Source: Alphaproteobacteria bacterium (GTDB lineage: Bacteria > Pseudomonadota > Alphaproteobacteria > Micropepsales > Micropepsaceae). Taken from it: a DNA stretch of 41,445 nucleotides. The number at the start of each line of letters is the position of its first letter. The first letter of the stretch is position 1. Both the position numbers and the translations under genes were made by a program. Below the pieces are notes generated by a model. It saw only the letters and a program-made list of their open reading frames with translations. It was not told where the DNA came from and made no database searches. The stretch is from contig PLJH01000013.1 of the NCBI GenBank assembly GCA_003139615.1, forward strand, positions 1-41,445. The letters run 5' to 3'. Below, piece by piece: positions 5,288-15,853 of this stretch.

Positions 5288-6541
5288 TTATCCAAACTTT
5301 CTTTCCGCCTCGCGCGTCAGCCCGAACGCCACCGACAGGAAATCCGAGCCGGTTGCCATGTGTGCGTTGGGTGCTGCCGCGGCGACGGCTTTGCGCACGG
5401 CAGGCACGCGGCTCGAGCCGCCCGTGAGAAAGATGGTGTGGATCGCTTCCGGCTTGACGCCCGCGCGCGCCACACAATCGAGCGCCACGCCGCGCAAACG
5501 ATGCATCTTTTCGCCGATTGCACCGTCGAAGCCTTCTTGCGTCGCATTGGCCGCCAGACCGCGTTCGAGAAATTCCAGCGCAAGCGCTATCTCCGCCGCA
5601 TCGCTCAGCGCGATCTTTGCGTCTTCGACCGCGAACGCGATGCGGTGGCCCAGATGTTTGCGCAAGGTGCGCAGCAGGCGCCGCACCTTTTCCGGTTCGC
5701 AGGATTGCTTGAGCAGATCGGCCGTATCGCGCTCGGTGCGGTAATTGTAGGCGAAGTTGATCGTCGACCACGTCGCGAGTTCGAAATAGGTCGCCCGCGG
5801 CATCGGCAAATCCTTTTCGGTGAGTTGGGTGCCGAGCCCGAGCAACGGCATCACCGCATCGAGGCTCAGCAGGCTGTCGAAATCCGTGCCGCCGATGCGC
5901 GCGCCGGCATTGGCGAGGATGTCATCGCGGCGGTCGGGACGGTTGCGCCGTTCGGGACCGATGCGGATCACCGAAAAGTCCGACGTGCCGCCGCCGATAT
6001 CGGCGACCAACACAAGCTCTTCGCGCGTGACGCTGTCTTCATAGTGATAGGCGGCCGCGAGCGGCTCATATTCGAAAATCACGTCGCGGAAGCCGACCCT
6101 TTTTGCGATGCCTTCCAGCACCGATTGCGCCTTCGCATCCGCCGCATCGTCACGGTCGACGAAGCGCACGGGGCGGCCATGCACCACCTGATCGATCTCG
6201 CGGCCGAGAAAAGTCTCGGCGCGCTGCTTCAAATGGCGCACGAACATCTCGACCACTTCGGTCAGCCTGATTCGCCGGTGGCCCACGGCCGTCGATTCGT
6301 CGATCAGGGGCGAGCCCAGGATCGATTTGAGGGCGCGCATGAGCCGGCCTTCATGCTGCGAGATATAGGTGTCGATGGCCTCGCGGCCGAACAGGATTCG
6401 GCCCTTGTTTTCAAAGTCGAAGAAGATCGCGCTGGGGATCAGCGTTTCGTCGCCTTCGACGGGGGCGAGCGCCAAGGCCCCGTCCTTGACGACGCCCAGC
6501 GCCGAGTTCGATGTCCCGAAATCCAGTCCGCACGCCGCCAT
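5288..6541 (-). CDS. Hsp70-family protein, YegD-like (ATPase domain only)
   Basis: A 417-residue actin/Hsp70-fold ATPase. Visible landmarks are phosphate-1 LDFGTSNSALG near the N-terminus, phosphate-2 VADIGGGTSDFSVIRIG in the middle and the adenosine motif FLTGGSSRVPAVRKAV near the C-terminus. The protein stops after the nucleotide-binding domain, with no DnaK-type substrate-binding domain, like E. coli YegD. The chosen ATG (6539-6541) has AAGGGG just upstream. A longer in-frame start at 6637 adds 32 residues that do not resemble the family. It probably acts as an atypical chaperone or regulator; the client is unknown. It stands alone, with merR upstream on the same strand across a hairpin. 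Confidence 0.88.
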   Translation of the reverse strand: MAACGLDFGTSNSALGVVKDGALALAPVEGDETLIPSAIFFDFENKGRILFGREAIDTYISQHEGRLMRALKSILGSPLIDESTAVGHRRIRLTEVVEMFVRHLKQRAETFLGREIDQVVHGRPVRFVDRDDAADAKAQSVLEGIAKRVGFRDVIFEYEPLAAAYHYEDSVTREELVLVADIGGGTSDFSVIRIGPERRNRPDRRDDILANAGARIGGTDFDSLLSLDAVMPLLGLGTQLTEKDLPMPRATYFELATWSTINFAYNYRTERDTADLLKQSCEPEKVRRLLRTLRKHLGHRIAFAVEDAKIALSDAAEIALALEFLERGLAANATQEGFDGAIGEKMHRLRGVALDCVARAGVKPEAIHTIFLTGGSSRVPAVRKAVAAAAPNAHMATGSDFLSVAFGLTREAERKFG

Positions 6542-6638
6542 GAAAAGCCCCTTTCGCACCACAATGGGGCTCCCACCTAATACACATAAAGTGCTCTTGC
6601 CAGTCTGTTCGACACCCCCTAAACTGTAGCAACGCATA

Positions 6639-6712: not shown

Positions 6713-7108
6713 CTATCGGCAGCGCTTCGCGGCAATAGCGCGTTCGCAATCCGCGATCTCGTGGCAATCGCAGCGAAATCGCGTTTCGAGCGACGCCTTC
6801 ATCCGGCGCGCCGTTTGGATCACTGCTTCGATCTCCACCAGCTTGCGGGCCGCCAGTGCCTGCCAGCGCGCCGATGGTTTGGTCCCGGCCGGAAAACCTG
6901 TGAGAAAGGTTTTCGTCTCGGCAACAGTGAACCCCGAGATACGCGCGATCCTGATCATTTCGAGGCGGCCGAGAATTTCCGGATCGTAGCGCCGTTGCCC
7001 GGAAACGCGCATGGGCTTCGGAAGAAGTCCCGCGCGCTCGTAATAGCGAATGGCAGAGGCCGCGAGTTCGGCTTTCTTGCCGACTTGTCCGATGCTCAGG
7101 CCGCGCAT
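6713..7108 (-). CDS. MerR-family transcriptional regulator
   Basis: A 131-residue MerR regulator with an N-terminal winged helix-turn-helix (IGQVGKKAELAASAIRYYERAGLLP, then RRYDPEILGRLEMI) and a long dimerisation helix. The effector region contains C113, C115, C121 and C130. The spacing C-x7-C between C113 and C121 resembles CueR-type metal sites, and C-x-C-x5-C matches the last three of SoxR's four cluster cysteines, but the first SoxR Cys is absent. A thiol- or metal-sensing role is therefore plausible but unproven. The start at 7108 is supported by GGGAGG at 7116-7121. It is divergent from the DJ-1/PfpI gene, whose promoter has MerR-type geometry. Confidence 0.9.
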   Translation of the reverse strand: MRGLSIGQVGKKAELAASAIRYYERAGLLPKPMRVSGQRRYDPEILGRLEMIRIARISGFTVAETKTFLTGFPAGTKPSARWQALAARKLVEIEAVIQTARRMKASLETRFRCDCHEIADCERAIAAKRCR

Positions 7109-7172
7109 TTTGATACCTCCCGAATTGAAAATCGCCGAATTGCGTGCCACATGCGAACACGCAATCGTGAGC

Positions 7173-7203
7173 TTGTGTTAAAGCGCACTTCAAGTTGTAG
7201 CGT
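7173..7203 (+). promoter_or_regulatory. Candidate MerR-controlled promoter with 19-bp spacer
   Basis: TTGTGT (7173-7178) and TAGCGT (7198-7203) are separated by 19 bases, the long spacer that MerR regulators untwist. Within the spacer lies an imperfect dyad, TTAAAG-N4-CTTCAA (7178-7193), where a MerR dimer would bind. It faces the DJ-1/PfpI gene that starts at 7237. The hexamers match the consensus only partly, so this is an inference from geometry and from the neighbouring merR. Confidence 0.45.
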
Positions 7204-7236
7204 TCTCGCGTTTCAATGCAACAAGGCGAGGACTCC

Positions 7237-7917
7237 ATGATGAATTTCTTTGCATTTCGCGAATGTTTGCCTGCGCTCGCGGGCGTCGTTCTCTTGTGTG
7301 GCGGCGCTACGGCGGCCATCGCGCAGCCTGTGCCGGACCGCCCGCTGGTGATCGAGATCGTGGCCACGCCCGGTGCGACGCTGCTCGATTTCGCCGGACC
7401 TTCCGAAGTGTTCGGGGTGATGCCGGGTCACGCGGTCGAATATGTCGTCTCGGAGAGCACCGTGCCTTTCAAGCTCGAAAACGGCGTCAAAATTGCGCCG
7501 GATTACACATTCGACGACGCACCGAAGCCAGACATTGTCGTCATCGGGTCGCAAGCGGCGAAGGGAAGCGACAAGGCCATGGCGTGGTTGCGCCGCGTTC
7601 ATTCCGATGGCGGGCTCGTGATGTCCGTCTGCACGGGGGCAGACTGGCTTGGGCAATCCGGGTTGCTGGCGGGGCTTGAAGCCACGACGCATCACCATGC
7701 CTATTCCAGTTTCCAGAAGACTTTCGCCGACGTAAAACTCGTTCGCGGTCGACGCTATGTCGAGAGCGACGCAAATCTGTTCACGGCCGGCGGCTACACG
7801 GCCGGCCTCGACCTCGCGCTGCATCTTGTCGATCAACGCTACGGGCGCAAAGCGGCGCAAGAAGTGGCCGCGCGACTCGAATACCAGGGTAACGGTTGGA
7901 TCACGAACGAACTCTGA
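7237..7917 (+). CDS. Exported DJ-1/PfpI-family protein
   Basis: A 226-residue protein of the class I glutamine amidotransferase-like (DJ-1/PfpI, ThiJ) fold. After an N-terminal signal peptide (about 28 residues, ending ATAAIAQ) comes VIEIVATPGATLLDFAGPSEVFG, typical of the AraC-associated/isonitrile-hydratase-like branch. The reactive nucleophile elbow is SVCTGADWLG with C132. A signal peptide is uncommon in this fold and suggests a periplasmic enzyme or thiol sensor. The start at 7237 follows GGCGAGGA; a 7-codon upstream ATG at 7216 is less likely. It lies divergently from merR and probably under its control. The substrate is unknown. Confidence 0.85.
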   Translation: MMNFFAFRECLPALAGVVLLCGGATAAIAQPVPDRPLVIEIVATPGATLLDFAGPSEVFGVMPGHAVEYVVSESTVPFKLENGVKIAPDYTFDDAPKPDIVVIGSQAAKGSDKAMAWLRRVHSDGGLVMSVCTGADWLGQSGLLAGLEATTHHHAYSSFQKTFADVKLVRGRRYVESDANLFTAGGYTAGLDLALHLVDQRYGRKAAQEVAARLEYQGNGWITNEL

Positions 7918-8928: not shown

Positions 8929-10176
8929 ATGACATCCGAGATTGCGGTGATGAACCAGCGCGCCGTGGCGCTGGCCGCGGATTCCGCGGTGACGCTCGTC
9001 GATGGCGGGCTTATCGCCGTGCGCAACGACCAGCGCAAGCTGTTCAATTTGGTCGAGGGCCGGCCCATCGGCATCATGTTCTTCGGCCTGGCCGACATGA
9101 TGGGCCATCCCTGGGACCAGCTGATCCTGCATTATCAGACGAAGGTGAAGCCCGCGTCTTTCGCCCATGTGCGCGACTACGCGACGAGCTTCACCGGCAT
9201 GCTCGACAATCTGACGGAATTCTTTCCGCGCGACCGTTATGCGGAGGAATACCGCCGACTGCTTGCTTCCGTGTTCCGCTATGTGTTCCATCTGGCGCAA
9301 TTCCTGCGCGACAGCGCGGAAGGCGATCTGGCGCAGGCGAGCGACACCGCGATCCTCGAGCGCGCGATCGAGCAGATCTGGCGCGATTACCAGTTCAAGG
9401 ATGACGGCAGCCCGCGGCCCGACCTCTCCTGTTTCCCGAAAGATTTCGGCCGCAAGATCGCGGTCGATTATGCGGCCCAGATCGACGAGCTGATCGCGTA
9501 TGGTTTTGCGCCGTTCGGCTTGAGCAAACAGGCCGTCCAGCGGTTGCGCGAAATCGGCGTTTATTGCGGCGTGAAGGATCTGTTTCTCGAAGACGTTGCA
9601 GGGCTCGTGTTTGCCGGCTTCGGCGCCGACGACCGCTATCCCTCCGTCGTCACCTGTTTCGTCTCCGCGGTGGTGGGCGGCATCGTCAAGCGGGCGGAAG
9701 CGACGGTCGATGCGATCGACGGCGAAGTGCGCTCGAAAATCCGCGTCTTCGCCGACAGTGAGGTGACGAACGCGTTCATCCGCGGCATCGATTTCAATCT
9801 CGAGCGGCGCATCTACGGCGGCTTTCGCATGATGATGCACGGACTTGTGGATCAGGTTGTGGGTGCGTTCGGCAACGCGGATGCCGCGATGCGCGACGGC
9901 GTGCGCGAGCGGTTCAACCGCGATTTCGTGCCGCGGTATTTCGCGGCGTTCCACCACATGATCGCGGAATACCAGCAGCACGCTTTCATCAACCCGATCC
10001 TGCGGGTGATGGAGATCGCGGGCCGCGACGAGCTTGCGAATACCGCGCGCGATCTCGTGACGCTCAACATCTTCAAAAAGCGTATCATGGCGCAGAAGGA
10101 AACCGTGGGCGGGGCCGTCGATGTGGCCGTGATCAGCCGCGACGGCGGGTTCCACTGGGCATCGAAAAAGGGATAG
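8929..10176 (+). CDS. Proteasome-like N-terminal-nucleophile hydrolase homologue (uncharacterised)
   Basis: A 415-residue protein. After removal of Met1 the chain would begin TSEIAVM, and the next part reads AVALAADSAVT. This aligns without gaps with proteasome beta subunits (T-T-T-x-A-V... GVVLAADSRAT): Thr1 as nucleophile and Asp at mature position 17. A Lys in QRKLFNL at mature position 36 could replace Lys33, and IGIMFFGLADM matches the beta-subunit core strand before the SGxxAD turn. The rest, from about residue 70, is mostly helical and much longer than HslV or Anbu. The start at 8929, rather than the ATG at 8890, is favoured because it exposes the Thr. No ATPase partner is adjacent. 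A second gene follows 4 bases later. Protease activity is inferred, not shown. Confidence 0.75.
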   Translation: MTSEIAVMNQRAVALAADSAVTLVDGGLIAVRNDQRKLFNLVEGRPIGIMFFGLADMMGHPWDQLILHYQTKVKPASFAHVRDYATSFTGMLDNLTEFFPRDRYAEEYRRLLASVFRYVFHLAQFLRDSAEGDLAQASDTAILERAIEQIWRDYQFKDDGSPRPDLSCFPKDFGRKIAVDYAAQIDELIAYGFAPFGLSKQAVQRLREIGVYCGVKDLFLEDVAGLVFAGFGADDRYPSVVTCFVSAVVGGIVKRAEATVDAIDGEVRSKIRVFADSEVTNAFIRGIDFNLERRIYGGFRMMMHGLVDQVVGAFGNADAAMRDGVRERFNRDFVPRYFAAFHHMIAEYQQHAFINPILRVMEIAGRDELANTARDLVTLNIFKKRIMAQKETVGGAVDVAVISRDGGFHWASKKG

Positions 10177-10180
10177 CTCC

Positions 10181-10621
10181 ATGGCCGATCAAAAGAGATT
10201 GTCCGACACAGCACCGCGCGGCGCGCTGGCGGAAGGCGCAGAACGGCTCGATCGCATCGCGCGCTCCGCGACGACGCAACCGGCGAACGCCACGGCGGGC
10301 AATTCCATCGACGATAACAATCGCATGCTCGCGATCAGCCCGGATGAAATGTGGGCGCGAAACTATATGAGCCACGGCATCGGACCGAAGCTCGAAGCGA
10401 GCCCGCTCCTCGGCATGGCGCCCATCGCCCATCTCGTCTCAATGCCGAAATTCGTGCCGCCGACGGAATTGGGCCCCGAACCGATCGTGACCCGGACGGC
10501 TCCCATTGCCGAACAACCGATGATCCGCGATGTGAAACCAAACGGCCCTATCGGCGCGCATATCGGCAAACCGATGCGCAAACGTTCGTGGCTGGGGCGG
10601 ATGCTAATGGGGCGGAGTTAG
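10181..10621 (+). CDS. Uncharacterised partner of the proteasome-like protein
   Basis: A 146-residue protein starting 4 bases after the stop of the proteasome-like gene, so almost certainly co-transcribed. It has no signal peptide or membrane segment. The N-terminal 50 residues are Ala/Thr/Asn-rich (LAEGAERLDRIARSATTQ). The centre has many prolines (PKFVPPTELGPEP, VKPNGPIGAHIGKP), and the C-terminus is basic (MRKRSWLGRMLMGRS). It therefore looks largely disordered, which would fit a substrate, adaptor or regulator of the upstream protein. I do not recognise a family. Confidence 0.7.
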   Translation: MADQKRLSDTAPRGALAEGAERLDRIARSATTQPANATAGNSIDDNNRMLAISPDEMWARNYMSHGIGPKLEASPLLGMAPIAHLVSMPKFVPPTELGPEPIVTRTAPIAEQPMIRDVKPNGPIGAHIGKPMRKRSWLGRMLMGRS

Positions 10622-10636
10622 AGCGCGACTTGGAAG

Positions 10637-11053
10637 ATGGTTAAAGTGATACGCGCTGTTTTTTTCATTTTTCTCGCGAGTGTATGCGCCCTGAATGCCG
10701 CGGTTGCAGATGACAGGATTGGGGTACCGATATCGAATCTTTCAGAGGTATTTGAACATCCTCTGGATTGTGACGGCAAAGAATTCCGCGGTTACGTCTA
10801 TGTGCTTTTTGGCGACGGATTCTATGCGTTTTATCCACGACCAATCTCAAACGAGTCCGAGCTGGGGAAGTTTGATATCACCGTGCTTCCGGGAACCGGG
10901 CAGCAGCTTGCTTCACTGAGTGGGCTTAAGCCGGGGGAAAAACTTCTAATTCGCGGCAGGTTCACTGCTGCGCGGCGCTGTTTTGCTGACAGCAGGTGTG
11001 TCCCATTCGCTCATCCGGTTAATATTGACGATCTGCAAATCCTTGGCAGGTAG
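10637..11053 (+). CDS. Small exported protein, possible OB-fold
   Basis: A 138-residue protein with a signal peptide (MVKVIRAVFFIFLASVCALNAAVA, cleavage before DDR). The mature part is short and beta-rich: CDGKEFRGYVYVLFGDGFYAFYP, LKPGEKLLIRGRFTAARR and VNIDDLQILGR. That pattern resembles periplasmic OB-fold proteins that start with a strand carrying 'L-D-G-K-x-V-x-V-x-G'; this is only a fold-level guess. Base composition is visibly more AT-rich than the upstream genes, marking the edge of the accessory patch. The ATG has GGAAG directly abutting it, so a GTG at 10646 with better spacing is a possible alternative start. Confidence 0.65.
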   Translation: MVKVIRAVFFIFLASVCALNAAVADDRIGVPISNLSEVFEHPLDCDGKEFRGYVYVLFGDGFYAFYPRPISNESELGKFDITVLPGTGQQLASLSGLKPGEKLLIRGRFTAARRCFADSRCVPFAHPVNIDDLQILGR

Positions 11054-11084
11054 CCTGCAGCATTTGTCTGGGGTGAACTCCAGC

Positions 11085-11210
11085 ATGACGTCGCTGGGTT
11101 TAGCAGGAGTAGCAGGATTGATTCGCGAGCTTGCCAAACTAGCCTTAGCCGCCGCTGTGTTGGCGGGGACGTACACTATCGTCGGATTCTTGCTCGGCTC
11201 TTGGCCGTAA
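11085..11210 (+). CDS. Possible 41-residue membrane microprotein
   Basis: A short frame (MTSLGLAGVAG...) with one convincing membrane helix (LALAAAVLAGTYTIVGFLLG) near the C-terminus. The upstream GGGGTGA is a weak ribosome-binding site. It lies just after the exported OB-like protein. It could be real but may be chance; composition and position are the only support. Confidence 0.3.
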   Translation: MTSLGLAGVAGLIRELAKLALAAAVLAGTYTIVGFLLGSWP

Positions 11211-11417
11211 GAAATTTCAAACTGAGACACTACCGAGCGGCATCTCGGTCGCCCCGTCGCCCGGCGTGTGCCGGAAGCCCAAATCCCCGAGAGCATTCGG
11301 ACTTGCTGTGATCCGTCGCGAGTGCATTAACTGCCACACATAACCTGTCGCCGCATTCATACCGCATTCGATCAGCTGACACAGTCTCCGTGGATTTGGG
11401 ATATGGATTGCAGACAC

Positions 11418-12065
11418 CTAGTTTTCTGTTGCTTCACCCTCCGTGTGTCCCGCCCAAACAACGTAAACGCGTTCCGGGTGATCGAAGTCGATCAGCTTAC
11501 AAAAAATGACGCCGCTCTTGTCGTGAAGCATGATTCTGTGAACGTCGACGAGGCGAGTGATTTTTGCGGCCCACGCTTGGATTATTGGGAAGTCTTTCTG
11601 AATAATTATGTCGTTTGTCATGTATTTCTTGAGGTTGCTGCGATGCAACGAATCTCCGCATCGTCCATAGAGAGCGCCGAGGTCACTTTTCGTAAGGAAT
11701 CCGTCTTTTAATTCTTTCTGATCCCACTGTGTTGGCGAAATTTTTTGCATTGTAATCGGCACGGGATAGAAGTCGGAGTTAAGGTCCGTCAACATTTTCA
11801 TTAATTTTGTTGCCGATGCCTCTTTTCGGAATGCTTTGGTATCGGTTTTCTTTATATCTCCGTGGGCGACCAGGCACCCGAGCGCGATCAGTTCGCACAT
11901 CATGCGGAGCTGTAAATAGCAGAATTCTTTTGTGTAATGACTATTTACGCCCTTGTCCCCACCGATGAGGTTGTTAAGCAACCACAAGCGCCCCCTTATC
12001 TCCTGAAGGGCATTGGCGTAGATTCCCATAGCCGCTTTTTGCTTTTCGGTAGGTAGGATGACCAC
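11418..12065 (-). CDS. Orphan protein of unknown function, AT-rich gene
   Basis: A 215-residue, probably cytosolic, largely helical protein with no signal peptide or membrane segment. It starts at GTG 12065 behind GAGGAGAAGGG, a strong ribosome-binding site. Codon use is much more AT-rich and Lys/Asn-rich than the flanking genes (for example KKTDTKAFRKEASATKLMKMLTDLNSD), which points to recent acquisition. The N-terminal part (ALQEIRGRLWLLNNLI, QLRMMCELIALGCLVAHGD) resembles helical bundles of HEPN or DUF-type accessory proteins, but I see no catalytic R-x4-6-H motif, so I assign no function. It sits beside the group II intron remnant. Confidence 0.75.
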   Translation of the reverse strand: MVILPTEKQKAAMGIYANALQEIRGRLWLLNNLIGGDKGVNSHYTKEFCYLQLRMMCELIALGCLVAHGDIKKTDTKAFRKEASATKLMKMLTDLNSDFYPVPITMQKISPTQWDQKELKDGFLTKSDLGALYGRCGDSLHRSNLKKYMTNDIIIQKDFPIIQAWAAKITRLVDVHRIMLHDKSGVIFCKLIDFDHPERVYVVWAGHTEGEATEN

Positions 12066-12194
12066 AGACCCTTCTCCTCACGAGAAAAAATGCCCCACGC
12101 TCATTTCGAACGAGTAATCAATGTAGCATGGTAAGCGCGACGACGTTCTAAATCGCATGCTAAGCACGCCACCCCCCATGACGGGTAAATCCGG

Positions 12195-12300
12195 TGACAG
12201 CGGCAACGTCCCCCAGCCTGTCAAATGAATTGCGGCCGATCGGGCGGCTGCTGTTTGGGTTTGCGCCTCGTGCAGCGCGAGAGAAACGTTGCCGCTGTCA
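12195..12300. repeat. Stem-loop with perfect 15-bp arms abutting the intron 5' end
   Basis: TGACAGCGGCAACGT at 12195-12209 is the exact reverse complement of ACGTTGCCGCTGTCA at 12286-12300. The 76-base loop contains further short pairings (GCGGCC... GGCGGC; CTCG...CGAG). The right arm ends at the last base before the intron's GTGCGCC. Some bacterial group II introns choose target sites next to hairpins (terminators or attC sites). The arms do not contain a recognisable attC core (GTTRRRY), so I do not call it attC. Confidence 0.7.
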
Positions 12301-12654
12301 GTGCGCCAGGAAGTTGGCGCGATCCAGCCGGTGAAAGTCCGGCCCGGGTAAGGAGTAGCGTCCGCCCGGTAGCGAGTGTTGCGAGGTGGAAGGTGACGAC
12401 CATCGCGAAGCGTACACAGCAATTGTGCAGGGTGAGCTATTGAGCCGCGAAAGAGCAACTCGAACGCAGAGGCCGAGGCGGTCGACAGCGCCGAAGGCAA
12501 CATGAGCAGCGCCGTCACACGAGGTGCTGTCACTCTGCCGTGGTCGCAGACCTCATCACGCACGAAGGGATCGTGTCGGAACCTGGGAGAGCTTGTTTCC
12601 GACCGGGGAGTGCATGCCGGTCCGCGTTGGGAAGGTGATGAGCCGTAGCCGACG

Positions 12655-12849
12655 ATGAACGGACGCAAGCAGTCAGACGCTGCCATAGTAGCTGCGAAGT
12701 CGTCGAACGACGCCGCGCGAGCGGTCGAGGAGGCGATGGAGCCAAGGGCCGGGGCCGAGGAGAACGCGAGCCGGCAAAGCACGCACCGGACTTTGAGCCG
12801 GGAACGCGTGACCCAGGCGCTGGCGCGCGTACGACAAAGAGCAACAAAC
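12655..12849 (+). pseudogene. N-terminal remnant of group II intron reverse transcriptase/maturase
   Basis: About 65 codons from MNGRKQSDAAIV through RQSTHRTLSRERVTQALARVRQ match the usual variable leader of intron-encoded reverse transcriptases ahead of RT motif 0. Where the polymerase domain should start, the sequence goes straight to a small hairpin (ACGACAAAG 12831-12839 with CTTTGTCGT 12851-12859) and then to domain V. All RT, maturase and endonuclease domains are missing, so the gene is dead. The frame stays open to 12966 but runs through intron RNA domains. Confidence 0.7.
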
Positions 12850-12875
12850 GCTTTGTCGTCAGACATCCGAGGTGG

Positions 12876-12908
12876 GAGCGGTATGCGGGAAAGCCGCACG
12901 TACGGTTC
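12876..12908 (+). ncRNA. Group II intron domain V
   Basis: The catalytic hairpin of the intron. The AGC triad is present in GAGC, the upper stem-loop is GCGG-GAAA-GCCGC and the closing strand is GTACGGTTC. Against the usual GAGCCGTATG start, the fifth base is G rather than C, which leaves a G-G mismatch in the lower stem. That change and the missing maturase suggest an element that has decayed. Confidence 0.8.
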
Positions 12909-13096
12909 TGTGCGGGGCGCGCGTAGCAATACGCGTCCCTACCGCGATCCGTATTCTGACCGATAGAAATTCGGTTAGTATGTCTGTTGGGAGAGCACGA
13001 TCATTACAATCCGCGAACCCAATTCTGTCATTCCGAGGCGATACTCGGCGGCAGAGATTATCGAGCTAGTTGAAGCTTTTCGTGATAAAAAAATTA

Positions 13097-13187
13097 GGTG
13101 ATGGGGTGGACGGCTCCTCTCGATGAAGTCCCAATGACCTCATCCTGGCACATCGATGCCGTTGCAGTGGCCGTCCACCCCATCACC
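13097..13187. mobile_element. MITE-like element with perfect 18-bp terminal inverted repeats
   Basis: Arms of 18 bp (13097-13114 and 13170-13187) are perfect reverse complements, GGTGATGGGGTGGACGGC and its complement, around 55 bases with no coding potential. The total of 91 bases with exact terminal repeats fits a miniature transposable element or the remains of an insertion sequence. No target-site duplication is clear: left flank AAATTA, right flank GTATTAG. The parent transposase is not in the window. Confidence 0.5.
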
Positions 13188-13221
13188 GTATTAGACGTCA
13201 CCGTATTAGTCACCGTATTAG
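13184..13221 (+). repeat. Short tandem repeat of CACCGTATTAG
   Basis: Three copies of CACCGTATTAG at 13184-13194, 13199-13209 and 13211-13221. The last two form a 12-base tandem (GTCACCGTATTA). The first copy overlaps the right arm of the inverted-repeat element, so the array may have grown by slippage from its edge. It lies just upstream of the gene at 13237 and may contribute to its promoter region. Confidence 0.85.
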
Positions 13222-13236
13222 AAGGTAGTTGCTGAG

Positions 13237-13767
13237 ATGAATATTCACAGACGCGGATTTATGGCTGGCCTCCTCATTGCCGGTATTGCCGACACAGGCG
13301 TGCTCGCCGAGCCCGGCACGCCGATAGACGAACGATTGGCCTGCGCAGTGTGGATAGATAATGCCGATCTGCGGTTAGGCGAAAGATTTAAGCTGACTGC
13401 CGCAATCGAATGCAAAAAGGGAACCTGTTTCGTTTATGCCCCGATTGGCTTCGGATCATTGGGGTTCTTGACAACAATCAAGACGTCGAGTGGCGATCTT
13501 GTTCTGCCTCCATTCGAATTATCCGCGCATTCGTTTGCGACGAAGTTTCTTTCGGACGAGCATGATTTTTTGAAGCTATACGCCGGAATGATCGAGGGGG
13601 CTTACATAGAGCGCAATGTCAGCGACTTCTTTCCGACCGCTGGCGAATACACCGTGGGTGCGTCATACGAGTCGCCCATAATCAGATTGGCGACGGCGGT
13701 TACAGATGCGATTGTTCGGGAAGACGGTCGAATATTTTCACCTCTATTGAAAATTCAAGTGCGTTAA
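13237..13767 (+). CDS. Exported protein of unknown function with Tat-like signal
   Basis: A 176-residue protein. The N-terminus MNIHRRGFMAGLLIAGIADTG has twin arginines followed by Phe in a twin-arginine-type context and cleavage near LAEPG, so export by Tat (or Sec) is likely. The mature region is beta-rich (ACAVWIDNADLRLGERFKLTAAIECKKG, PTAGEYTVGASYESP), which suggests an immunoglobulin-like or C2-like sandwich, perhaps with a disulphide between Cys residues. The AAGG at 13222 is a modest ribosome-binding site. The gene is more AT-rich than the backbone and sits behind the tandem repeats. No family recognised. Confidence 0.7.
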   Translation: MNIHRRGFMAGLLIAGIADTGVLAEPGTPIDERLACAVWIDNADLRLGERFKLTAAIECKKGTCFVYAPIGFGSLGFLTTIKTSSGDLVLPPFELSAHSFATKFLSDEHDFLKLYAGMIEGAYIERNVSDFFPTAGEYTVGASYESPIIRLATAVTDAIVREDGRIFSPLLKIQVR

Positions 13768-14687
13768 TTCGGAAAACCCGGGCTAGCTCAGGGTGAACTT
13801 GCGGGCCGCAAGACCGATATGAGCGATCCCGATATGGGGAGTTGAGCACGAAGAATACCGGGACCGCTACTGCATTTCCGCACACCGTATTTCGTTCTAT
13901 TCCAGCGACTATTCCAGTGACAGGCGATGTGTTGCAGCTTGTGGCGGACGAGCATTCCGAGGGCCGAGCTGTGTTGGCTGGTTCGCAAGCGCAGGTGATG
14001 GTCATCCGGCGATGTTTCATCAGGATTCTGAAAACTCGCCTGCACCATAACCTCCCGACCCACCAATAAATTCGCGCTGCAAATTCGCCAAGGATTCGTT
14101 TTTTGTTCCAACTATTTTTTCGAATCGAACATTTGTTCGATTGTGCGCGACGAAATCCATTGCCATGTTGAACGGTTGCCACGCGCAGGAGCGCGCAGAT
14201 GGAATCGAAAGACGTGAGCGTCTACATGCATGTGATGTCGGGACAATCGGGCGGAGCGTACGGGTATGTGTTGCATACGCAACGGCGTGTGGCCGGGTTG
14301 TCGCGCGCGCTTTGCTTTGTCGATCCGTCGGGTGTCTCACCGTTGCCGAACAAAGATCAGGCGAAAACAGGCGAAATATCAGGTGGAATAACAGGTAAAA
14401 TAACAGGCGAAAAAGCTCTGTTTCGCGGTATTAAACGGTTGAATTACGTGGAAATTTTTCGGCCCGAAAAAATTACGAAAAAACGCTGCGGTCGCCGTGG
14501 CACAAAGGACCGCACATATGCAGATCAGACACAGGGAATTTCGCAGGGCGCAAAAAGCCCTGTTCCGGAGGTTCAAGTGATTGAATCTGCGGCAAATTTA
14601 GGAGTGAAAAATTTTTCGCCGATTTTTGCGCGCCGCAACATGCGGATCGGGGCGCGTTTCGGCCGCCGCAAAGGCGTTGGCGCGAAC
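13768..14687. other. Gene-poor AT-rich stretch with dispersed repeats
   Basis: 920 bases without a gene I can support. A 75-codon frame opens at TTG 13842 (ends 14069) with natural-looking codons but no properly spaced ribosome-binding site. Another opens at ATG 14199 behind AGGAGCG but runs without a stop antisense through the Nudix gene. Between about 14352 and 14412 a degenerate ACAGGYRAAAT-type unit recurs five times (CAGGCGAAAA, CAGGCGAAAT, CAGGTGGAAT, CAGGTAAAAT, CAGGCGAAAA). A related ACAGGGAATTTCGCAGG lies near 14531-14547. Such units are common as interspersed debris in alphaproteobacterial accessory DNA. Confidence 0.6.
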
Positions 14688-15143
14688 CTAGACGACCGCC
14701 ATTCTCCTGTGCCGTTCCACGCTCAGCGCGATGATGCGGTGCATTTCGGACCAGAGGGGCAGGGTGTCGAGTTCTTCGAGCGCGAACCAGCGCGCCTCCG
14801 CGGCATCGGAAGCGGCCACGGCCGTGCCGGAGATCACCCGGGCGCTGTAATCGATCAGCACGAAATGGTCGTTGGCCGCGCCCGCCTCGGCATCGCGGAT
14901 CGTCTCGGCCACGTCGATCAGGCCGAGGATTTCGACCTCGAGGCCCGTCTCCTCGCGGACTTCGCGCCGCACGCCCTCGATCAGGGTTTCGCCGAATTCC
15001 AGCTTCCCGCCCGGCAGGCTCCATTGGCCTTTGCGGGGCTCCTTGGCGCGGCGGATGAGCAGTACATCGCCCCGGCCGTTCCAGATGACGGCCGCGACGC
15101 CCAGCACAATCCGGCCTGCAATTTTAAGAGAGGTCTCGTCCAT
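14688..15143 (-). CDS. Nudix hydrolase
   Basis: A 151-residue protein with a complete Nudix box, G-x5-E-x7-R-E-x2-E-E-x-G, seen as GKLEFGETLIEGVRREVREE followed by TGL, at about residues 46-68. It should hydrolyse a nucleoside diphosphate linked to another group with Mg2+. The preceding VAAVIWNGRGDVLLIRRAKEPRKGQWSLPGG is typical of the MutT/ADP-ribose pyrophosphatase-like branch, with WSLPGG placing the substrate base. It is a single gene on the minus strand, divergent from the FKBP gene. The specific substrate (oxidised nucleotide, ADP-ribose or other) cannot be read from sequence. Confidence 0.92.
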   Translation of the reverse strand: MDETSLKIAGRIVLGVAAVIWNGRGDVLLIRRAKEPRKGQWSLPGGKLEFGETLIEGVRREVREETGLEVEILGLIDVAETIRDAEAGAANDHFVLIDYSARVISGTAVAASDAAEARWFALEELDTLPLWSEMHRIIALSVERHRRMAVV

Positions 15144-15328
15144 TCGGTCTCACAGGGGCCAGGGGCCGACTGGTTAAGCATGAAACCGGTTGAATTCAAT
15201 GCGTTGGAGGCTATTCCTGTATCCTTGCGGTATCTCGATCACCCCGGCCTGGGCGTGCTAATCTCGGGTGCCTCAGTTTTGCCGTGGATGCGCTTCAGCT
15301 CCGCGGGCCTTCAGGGAGTGACTCCAGC

Positions 15329-15853
15329 ATGATGCGTCTTGGAATTCTCGTGGCCGCCTTCCTGGCCTTTGCCGTCCCGGCCCATGCGGCCGACAGCGCG
15401 CTCAGCGCCGCGGCCAATGCGAAGTTTCTCGCCGATTATGCGAAGAATCCCGGCGTGAATGTGCGCCCCAGCGGCCTCGAATACCGCATCATCCACAATG
15501 GTTTCGGCATGCGGCCGGGCCCCCGGGACACGGTCACCGTCTATTACAAAGGCACGTTGATCAACGGCTCGGTGTTCGATTCGACCGAGCCCGGATTTCC
15601 GGCGCAGCTGAAGGTGAACCAGGTGATTTCGGGCTGGACGGAAGCGCTGGAGAACATGCGCGTCGGCGATCACTGGGAACTCGTGATCCCTCCCAACCTT
15701 GCCTATGGCATTCGCGGCGCCGGAAACGGGGCGATCCCGCCGAACCAGACCCTTGTCTTCGATCTGGAACTTGTTTCCGCCACGCCGCCCACTCCGCAGG
15801 AACTGCAGGAGGAGCAGGAGGAAGAGGATAAGCACAGCAGCTCGCCGCAATAA
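15329..15853 (+). CDS. Exported FKBP-type peptidyl-prolyl cis-trans isomerase
   Basis: A 174-residue protein with a signal peptide (MMRLGILVAAFLAFAVPAHA, cleaved before ADSA). An FKBP domain follows: DTVTVYYKGTLINGSVFDST, VISGWTEALENMRVGDHWEL, IPPNLAYGIRGAG and IPPNQTLVFDLELV. It catalyses proline isomerisation in exported proteins, in the manner of E. coli FkpA or FklB-like enzymes. The short N-terminal spacer (AAANAKFLADYAKNPGV) is the usual linker, and a Glu/Asp-rich tail ends the chain. The start at 15329 is supported by GGGAG at 15314-15318; the upstream frame from 15284 lacks a signal-peptide-like start. Confidence 0.92.
   Translation: MMRLGILVAAFLAFAVPAHAADSALSAAANAKFLADYAKNPGVNVRPSGLEYRIIHNGFGMRPGPRDTVTVYYKGTLINGSVFDSTEPGFPAQLKVNQVISGWTEALENMRVGDHWELVIPPNLAYGIRGAGNGAIPPNQTLVFDLELVSATPPTPQELQEEQEEEDKHSSSPQ

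Follow-up and report, generated by a model that had tools for sequence, protein, structure and literature searches.

A predicted proteasome-like hydrolase nearly always encoded beside a small, probably unstructured protein

In 2021, Fuchs, Alva and Lupas described 22 new proteasome-like families, for which their paper offers few clues to function (PMC8665760). One of these families, PMI-4 (Proteasome homolog with Multiple Insertions 4), is characterized by insertions after H1/H2 and between H3/H4. It comprised 501 sequences after a 90% identity filter and probably ranks among the largest families of the group, with members in many phyla and in phages. Genomic context and co-occurrence gave the authors no functional hint for PMI-4 (PMC8665760). 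Two other relatives are Anbu, a bacterial protein without a known unfoldase that ends with an extra helix H5, and connectase, an archaeal protein ligase that is a monomeric relative of the proteasome (PMC8665760).

The locus analyzed here lies in a stretch of 41,445 nucleotides (hereafter the window) from an alphaproteobacterial genome assembly of 4.6 Mb. The initial annotation had proposed two open reading frames on the + strand, 8929-10176 (415 aa, gene 1) and 10181-10621 (146 aa, gene 2), separated by 4 bases, and both were recovered as proposed. The closest relatives of gene 1 were found in metagenome assemblies titled Rhizomicrobium sp., Alphaproteobacteria bacterium and Proteobacteria bacterium. 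By its features, gene 1 would not be an isolated protein but a member of a described, uncharacterized family.

Active site, fold and family of gene 1

The features of gene 1 are as follows.

8929..10176, + strand: gene 1, predicted proteasome-like N-terminal-nucleophile (Ntn) hydrolase, 415 aa (open reading frame, AlphaFold2, fold match, conservation)
8932..8934, + strand: codon of Thr2, the mature Thr1 and putative nucleophile (38/38; model residue 2 opposite residue 1 of the matched chain in most alignment rows)
8980..8982, + strand: codon of Asp18, corresponding to 20S Asp17 (38/38; 99/99, partly pattern-selected)
9037..9039, + strand: codon of Lys37, putatively in the role of 20S Lys33, three residues later (38/38; 99/99; weakly aligned with the 20S beta Lys by the profile)
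9085..9087, + strand: codon of Gly53, likely 20S Gly47 of the oxyanion hole (our own assignment, from the alignment of 99)
9229..9573, + strand: predicted helical insertion after H1/H2, residues 101-215 (AlphaFold2 secondary structure)
9760..10089, + strand: predicted four-helix expansion of the H3/H4 region, residues 278-387 (AlphaFold2 model)
10117..10164, + strand: predicted C-terminal core strands, residues 397-412 (AlphaFold2; profile match to 20S beta)

The protein begins with Met-Thr. In the window, an alternative ATG lies 39 nt upstream of position 8929 and would give a protein of 428 aa. In several homologues, an in-frame stop codon is located at or just 5' of the MTSEI/MTAEI start: no open codon precedes the start in two of them (L003 and L033), one in L034, and three in L016 and L036. 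These stops rule out an upstream start that would make the Thr internal, and they place the Thr at residue 2. The ATG at 8929 is therefore very probably the start codon, as judged from the sequences of the relatives.

Thr2, Asp18 and Lys37, which the initial annotation had read as a proteasome-type signature and whose invariance it had taken as a check, were identical in 38 of 38 homologous sequences. These were placed by BLAST coordinates and represent 35 distinct loci, L002-L004 being duplicates of L006, L008 and L009. The three residues were also identical in 99 of 99 non-redundant sequences, a set for which the start pattern used in collection partly fixed T2 and N9, and in which D18 lay inside one of the two search patterns in each of two collection searches. 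K37 was absent from every search and start pattern, so its 99/99 is unaffected by them. The position of Gly53 was occupied by Gly in 76 and by Asn in 19 of the 99 sequences, with Gly in the window; in our reading, this variable position is the likely counterpart of the oxyanion-hole Gly47.

The AlphaFold2 model of gene 1, built from a 49-sequence alignment, showed a pLDDT of 91.5 and a pTM of 0.87, with no segment below 50. In a Foldseek search of the PDB with this model, 20S proteasome chains were at the top of the list (best E 1.2e-4). With VIA-align 2, the model was superposed on the 20S chain 8ypk_C with a Z of 16.3 (rmsd 3.4 over 183 residues) and on Anbu 5nyw_I with a Z of 16.1 (rmsd 3.3 over 193 residues). 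In most rows of the structural alignment, residue 2 of the model falls on residue 1 of the matched chain. Among viral predicted structures, the best Foldseek match was a phage model named 'proteasome beta type-2 subunit' (E 3.8e-4). The Ntn fold that the initial annotation had assumed, with Thr2 in the place of Thr1, is thus supported by the model. At the sequence level, a search of the PDB with the single gene 1 protein gave no match, and the family profile reached the Thermoplasma 20S beta subunit with weak significance (full-sequence E 0.008). The stretch from Thr1 to Lys33 contributed 2 bits, which is very weak, and the C-terminal 'SGGxIDVAVI' strand contributed 15 bits, the profile stretch TVGGxIDVAVISxxxGF being aligned to Thermoplasma residues 176-193.

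The order of elements in the model is strands (4-54), two helices (62-72 and 81-91), a helical block (101-215), core strands (224-274), helices (278-387) and two terminal strands (397-403 and 407-412). The initial annotation had described a proteasome core followed by a helical tail of 250-300 residues. This layout was rejected on the basis of the model, which ends in strands, and of the family profile, which matches 20S beta near the C-terminus. Since both ends of gene 1 match 20S beta and the chain closes with strands, the model points to a core of the proteasome type that is interrupted by helical insertions. On this predicted structure, gene 1 is a proteasome-like Ntn hydrolase in which helices are inserted inside the core. 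A 20S-type double ring would be less likely because of these insertions; such insertions have been argued against a double ring before, with a caveat on their angle (PMC8665760).

The architecture agrees with PMI-4 as described. The long insertion after H1/H2 would correspond to residues 101-215, which are helical in the model, and the H3-H4 insertion to residues 278-387, where four helices are predicted in place of H3 and H4 of 20S. The occurrence in phages and several phyla is matched by homologues from Pseudomonadota, Streptococcus, Enterococcus and Porphyromonas, on phages, satellites and plasmids. PMI-4 and gene 1 also share the proteasome-like core and the lack of a known AAA+ partner. 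We therefore consider that gene 1 is best filed with PMI-4, by architecture and features rather than by comparison with the representative HDY66466.1.

Gene 1 resembles 20S beta subunits in its predicted fold, Thr1, Asp17, a Lys in the role of Lys33 and the C-terminal SGGxIDVAVI-like strand. It differs in its length of 415 residues, compared with roughly 200 in the matched chains, in the lack of a propeptide and in the helical insertions. Neither an alpha subunit gene nor an ATPase gene was found among the neighbours of gene 1 examined; as the initial annotation had remarked, no AAA+ unfoldase gene was seen there. Membership in Anbu was rejected, in spite of the similar fold, because the model ends in strand 407-412 and lacks the C-terminal helix H5 described for Anbu (PMC8665760). 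HslV was rejected as well, the immediate neighbours being an SDR gene and gene 2, with no HslU ATPase.

Neither gene matched any model of Pfam, NCBIfam or PADLOC-DB at E values up to 1, so that neither was assigned to a known defence family. In PHROGs, gene 1 gave a full-length match to phrog_5990 (E 1e-62), to which no function is assigned, and one weak short match; gene 2 gave nothing. One locus, L208 (G172), encodes a different, shorter proteasome-like protein starting MTIAIAVQVHDGVVLASDSAT, which was weakly matched and probably belongs to another family of the proteasome-like group.

The small downstream gene

The features of gene 2 are as follows.

10181..10621, + strand: gene 2, small, predicted mostly disordered partner, 146 aa (open reading frame, conserved downstream position, purifying selection, pLDDT 56)
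10337..10354, + strand: central motif SPDEMW, residues 53-58 (Pro54 and Trp58 in 28/28 of the genus alignment)
10583..10612, + strand: basic-aromatic C-terminal motif RSWLGRMLMG (echoed in distant alphaproteobacterial gene 2s)

An open reading frame of at least 30 aa starting between -20 and +45 nt from the gene 1 stop was found in 91 of 97 homologues, compared with 191 of 344 control ORFs. The 97 are the non-redundant homologues with room downstream, and the 344 are other long ORFs from the same loci; the control is a plain ORF count that includes false ORFs. For downstream ORFs of 30-75 aa in the same placing, the figures were 71/97 and 105/344. Each of the six exceptions has a candidate by eye outside this rule: an ORF of 26 aa at +7 (L166), starts at about +50 (L197), +65 (L200) and +151 (L198), an ORF that runs off the contig (L204) and one that spans the stop (L032), those of L198 and L032 being the weakest. 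In 14 further loci, several of them from lineages already counted, the ORF was in place in 11, and only more distant ORFs were present in 3. The proteasome-like gene is thus nearly always encoded beside a small, probably unstructured protein.

The 91 gene 2 proteins range from 30 to 197 aa, with a median of 60. Pooled over 26 pairs of best-matching ORFs, which overlap in that several share a member, pS was 0.62 and pN 0.25, and dN/dS was 0.06-0.53 where unsaturated. In 23 of the 26 pairs, pN was higher in gene 2 than in gene 1. Gene 2 is fast-evolving, yet it is under purifying selection.

The AlphaFold2 model of gene 2, from four sequences, showed a pLDDT of 56 and a pTM of 0.16, with three short helices at conserved blocks only, and the protein contains 11% Pro. 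These values agree with the description of gene 2 as apparently disordered in the initial annotation, and its idea of a dedicated partner found support in the co-occurrence described above. Conservation among the gene 2 proteins of the genus is found in three blocks, namely a helix at the N-terminus, a motif of the SP(D/E)ExW type in the centre and a basic-aromatic C-terminus. C-termini like that of the window occur in gene 2 proteins of distant alphaproteobacteria (for example L195, L202 and L203) and are absent in L033, L207 and L210. In the last 12 residues of the 30 large gene 2 proteins (at least 100 aa) we counted 46 aromatic residues, against a shuffle mean of 19.7 and a maximum of 35 (2000 shuffles, kinship ignored). 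An aromatic C-terminus as a universal mark of gene 2 fails in the 61 small proteins (62 against a shuffle mean of 54.2). No shared recognition motif was found across the gene 2 families, W-x2-3-F/Y occurring in 37 of 91. Because no gene 2 family spans all lineages, the grounds for speaking of the same partner are its position, size and selection, which support, at the level of sequence, the view that gene 2 belongs to one unit with gene 1.

Pup is a small disordered tag that ends in Gly-Gly-Glu/Gln. A Pup-like tag was ruled out for gene 2, none of the 91 proteins ending in GGE or GGQ.

It is worth considering whether gene 1 might be a connectase-like protein ligase, with gene 2 as the donor of a recognition peptide that is joined to a target. 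Connectase belongs to the same superfamily, is a monomeric and specific protein ligase, and combines a helical insertion with the conserved active site of the superfamily (PMC8665760); the gene 2 protein of the genus resembles a peptide chain and carries conserved linear motifs. The insertion of connectase, however, lies between S3 and S4 (PMC8665760), whereas those of gene 1 would lie elsewhere, and the taxonomic range differs, the two proteins being compared by description. The gene 2 families, moreover, have no recognition motif in common. We therefore regard a ligase of this type as quite unlikely.

Resident and mobile copies of the pair

In the genus of the window, 28 of 69 genomes gave a strong match to gene 1, and one more a weak match. 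In all 27 distinct genus loci besides the window, the pair is followed by a gene for what appears, from our reading of its sequence, to be a secreted, FKBP-like protein, and in 15 of the 27 it is preceded by an SDR gene. An Hsp70-like gene is located near the pair in several of these loci; both the Hsp70-like and the SDR genes are on the strand opposite to the pair. Six genus genomes contain the SDR gene and lack gene 1. The site was readable in five of them, the contig of the sixth being too short, and in all five the SDR gene was followed by the FKBP-like gene and then by a large ORF (about 885 aa); neither gene 1 nor gene 2 had a significant match there. Since both genes are missing together at the five empty sites, the pair in this genus is a resident cassette that is gained or lost as a unit.

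Some details of the window may be added. A short Hsp70-family gene (449 aa) lies at 5288-6637 on the opposite strand, as in several genus members, and a MerR regulator and a DJ-1/PfpI gene at 6713-7917 separate it from the SDR gene; the two genes are closer together in several relatives than in the window. Gene 2 is separated by about 4.7 kb (10622-15337) from the FKBP-like gene (match 15338-15796), whereas in relatives this gene follows the pair closely.

The conserved site raises the possibility of a housekeeping or stress role, such as specific processing or quality control, perhaps together with Hsp70, in which case phages would only be vehicles. The constant FKBP-like neighbour, the frequent SDR gene and the nearby Hsp70-like gene are consistent with this idea, as are the mostly housekeeping neighbours elsewhere: of ten chromosomal neighbours scanned, six were metabolic or housekeeping proteins, one was a membrane protein, one matched an IS1 transposase weakly and two were unmatched. 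The occurrence of the pair, however, is patchy. Besides the 28 of 69 genus genomes, homologues were found in 16 of 385 genomes of the class sample and 10 of 398 of the phylum sample, the genome of the window being counted in both, so that the pair is not core. The position of the Hsp70-like and SDR genes on the other strand and the persistence of the SDR gene without the pair in six genomes also argue against a housekeeping role, which we therefore consider improbable.

Homologues covering at least 80% of the query were present in 13 of 50,697 phage records: two streptococcal phages, seven streptococcal satellites, two Stenotrophomonas phages, one Providencia phage and one Porphyromonas phage. 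In the satellites Javan103 and Javan468, the homologue and its small gene are the final two genes. It is not always terminal, since seven annotated genes lie 3' of the homologue in Javan421. In one Stenotrophomonas phage, the homologue is inverted relative to its neighbours. In IMG/VR, 173 candidate stretches encode relatives, of which 80 were kept. A partial DNA match was obtained in 22 of 5,426 E. coli genomes; of two such loci viewed, one is a prophage copy between a methyltransferase and the Q gene, and in the other, also in a prophage, the homologue directly follows an HTH gene. The repressor family phrog_4 was matched by 13 of 36 same-strand upstream ORFs, taken from 51 loci. Ten plasmid records also contained a match. 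Homologues of the pair travel as prophage, satellite and plasmid cargo, often adjoining a CI-type repressor. Frameshifted or split homologues were noted at L087, L091 and L205/L209; these loci belong to viral contigs and to a single alphaproteobacterial genome.

There is another possible interpretation of this mobility. Gene 1 might be a protease that damages the cell, held in check by gene 2 as an inhibitor whose loss is lethal, so that the pair would be a toxin-antitoxin or addiction system with anti-phage effects as a secondary consequence. The carriage on plasmids and prophages would fit, as would the joint absence at all five empty sites and a gene 2 that is small, fast-evolving and transcribed in the same direction. 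In classical toxin-antitoxin pairs, however, the antitoxin gene is usually first, while here the partner gene is second. An addiction pair seems to us a rather unlikely account.

Proposed role and neighbouring systems

We favour the explanation that gene 1 is a protease or ligase with a Thr nucleophile and that the small protein is its dedicated partner, the two genes forming an accessory module that is probably used in phage conflict. The activity and the defence role are put forward as proposals, and we give this explanation as a whole a probability of about 0.5. Gene 1 would be a propeptide-free Ntn enzyme, the Thr of which is exposed at once by methionine aminopeptidase. Thr, Asp and Lys, conserved and placed in a predicted proteasome fold, would form a proteasome-type active site acting on amide bonds. 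The enzyme would probably be a smaller assembly that acts on specific peptides; a protease or amidohydrolase activity is plausible on the model, with a connectase-like ligation as an alternative. Gene 2, from its position and selection, would be the cognate, mostly disordered partner that binds gene 1, most likely a peptide inserted into the active-site cleft, be it as a substrate, an inhibitor or a targeting adaptor.

Because the prophage and satellite copies are often next to a CI-type repressor, the unit would probably be expressed in the lysogen, where it may act against other phages. More specifically, the disordered partner could sit in or close to the active site as a cognate bait, inhibitor or tag. 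Interference would then be triggered when infection disturbs this partner, or when the partner is transferred to a phage protein. We offer this phage-conflict mechanism tentatively. In the genus of the window, a chromosomal copy of the pair is kept at one site, and such a resident single site would fit a housekeeping role too. Few or single matches to defence families were obtained among 125 viral-contig neighbours and among 103 chromosomal neighbours, and no enrichment was visible in either set; these counts have no matched control, and one protein may be counted several times in them. The lack of a defence family in the unit, the lack of visible enrichment nearby and the mostly housekeeping chromosomal neighbours count against the anti-phage step.

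Apart from the 2021 description, the literature searches made gave papers that looked unrelated, with no function or defence role for the family of gene 1 and no account of the two-gene organization and mobile context of the pair. The downstream gene as part of the unit and the mobile-element context are thus new here; the small partner, the position next to a repressor and the carriage by satellites go beyond the account of PMI-4, which reports no telling genomic context (PMC8665760). The partner gene, the cargo position and the clean presence or absence of the pair provide a testable handle on the function of the family. The carriage of relatives of the pair by prophages and phage satellites hints at a two-gene system, so far unstudied, with a part in the conflict between phage and host. 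If this is true, the proteasome fold would extend into phage-host conflict or specific peptide processing, and a ligase or protease that depends on Thr and has a defined peptide as its partner would make a useful tool.

A link to the bacterial ubiquitin system was seen on some plasmids. A translated search with ubiquitin-system proteins matched no other locus of L034-L259, so that such a linkage was rejected as a general rule, being confined to four plasmids of this set. On these four rhizobial plasmids (L218, L234, L236 and L237), out of seven plasmids viewed, the homologue lies within about 1-2 kb of genes for a multiubiquitin-domain protein and a ThiF E1. The occurrence near such operons in two arrangements, one common to three Rhizobium plasmids and another in a Mesorhizobium plasmid, suggests that the proteasome homologue and the bacterial ubiquitin system may share islands on rhizobial plasmids. 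DUF6527 was found in all four, by annotation or translated match, and ClpP in the three Rhizobium plasmids.
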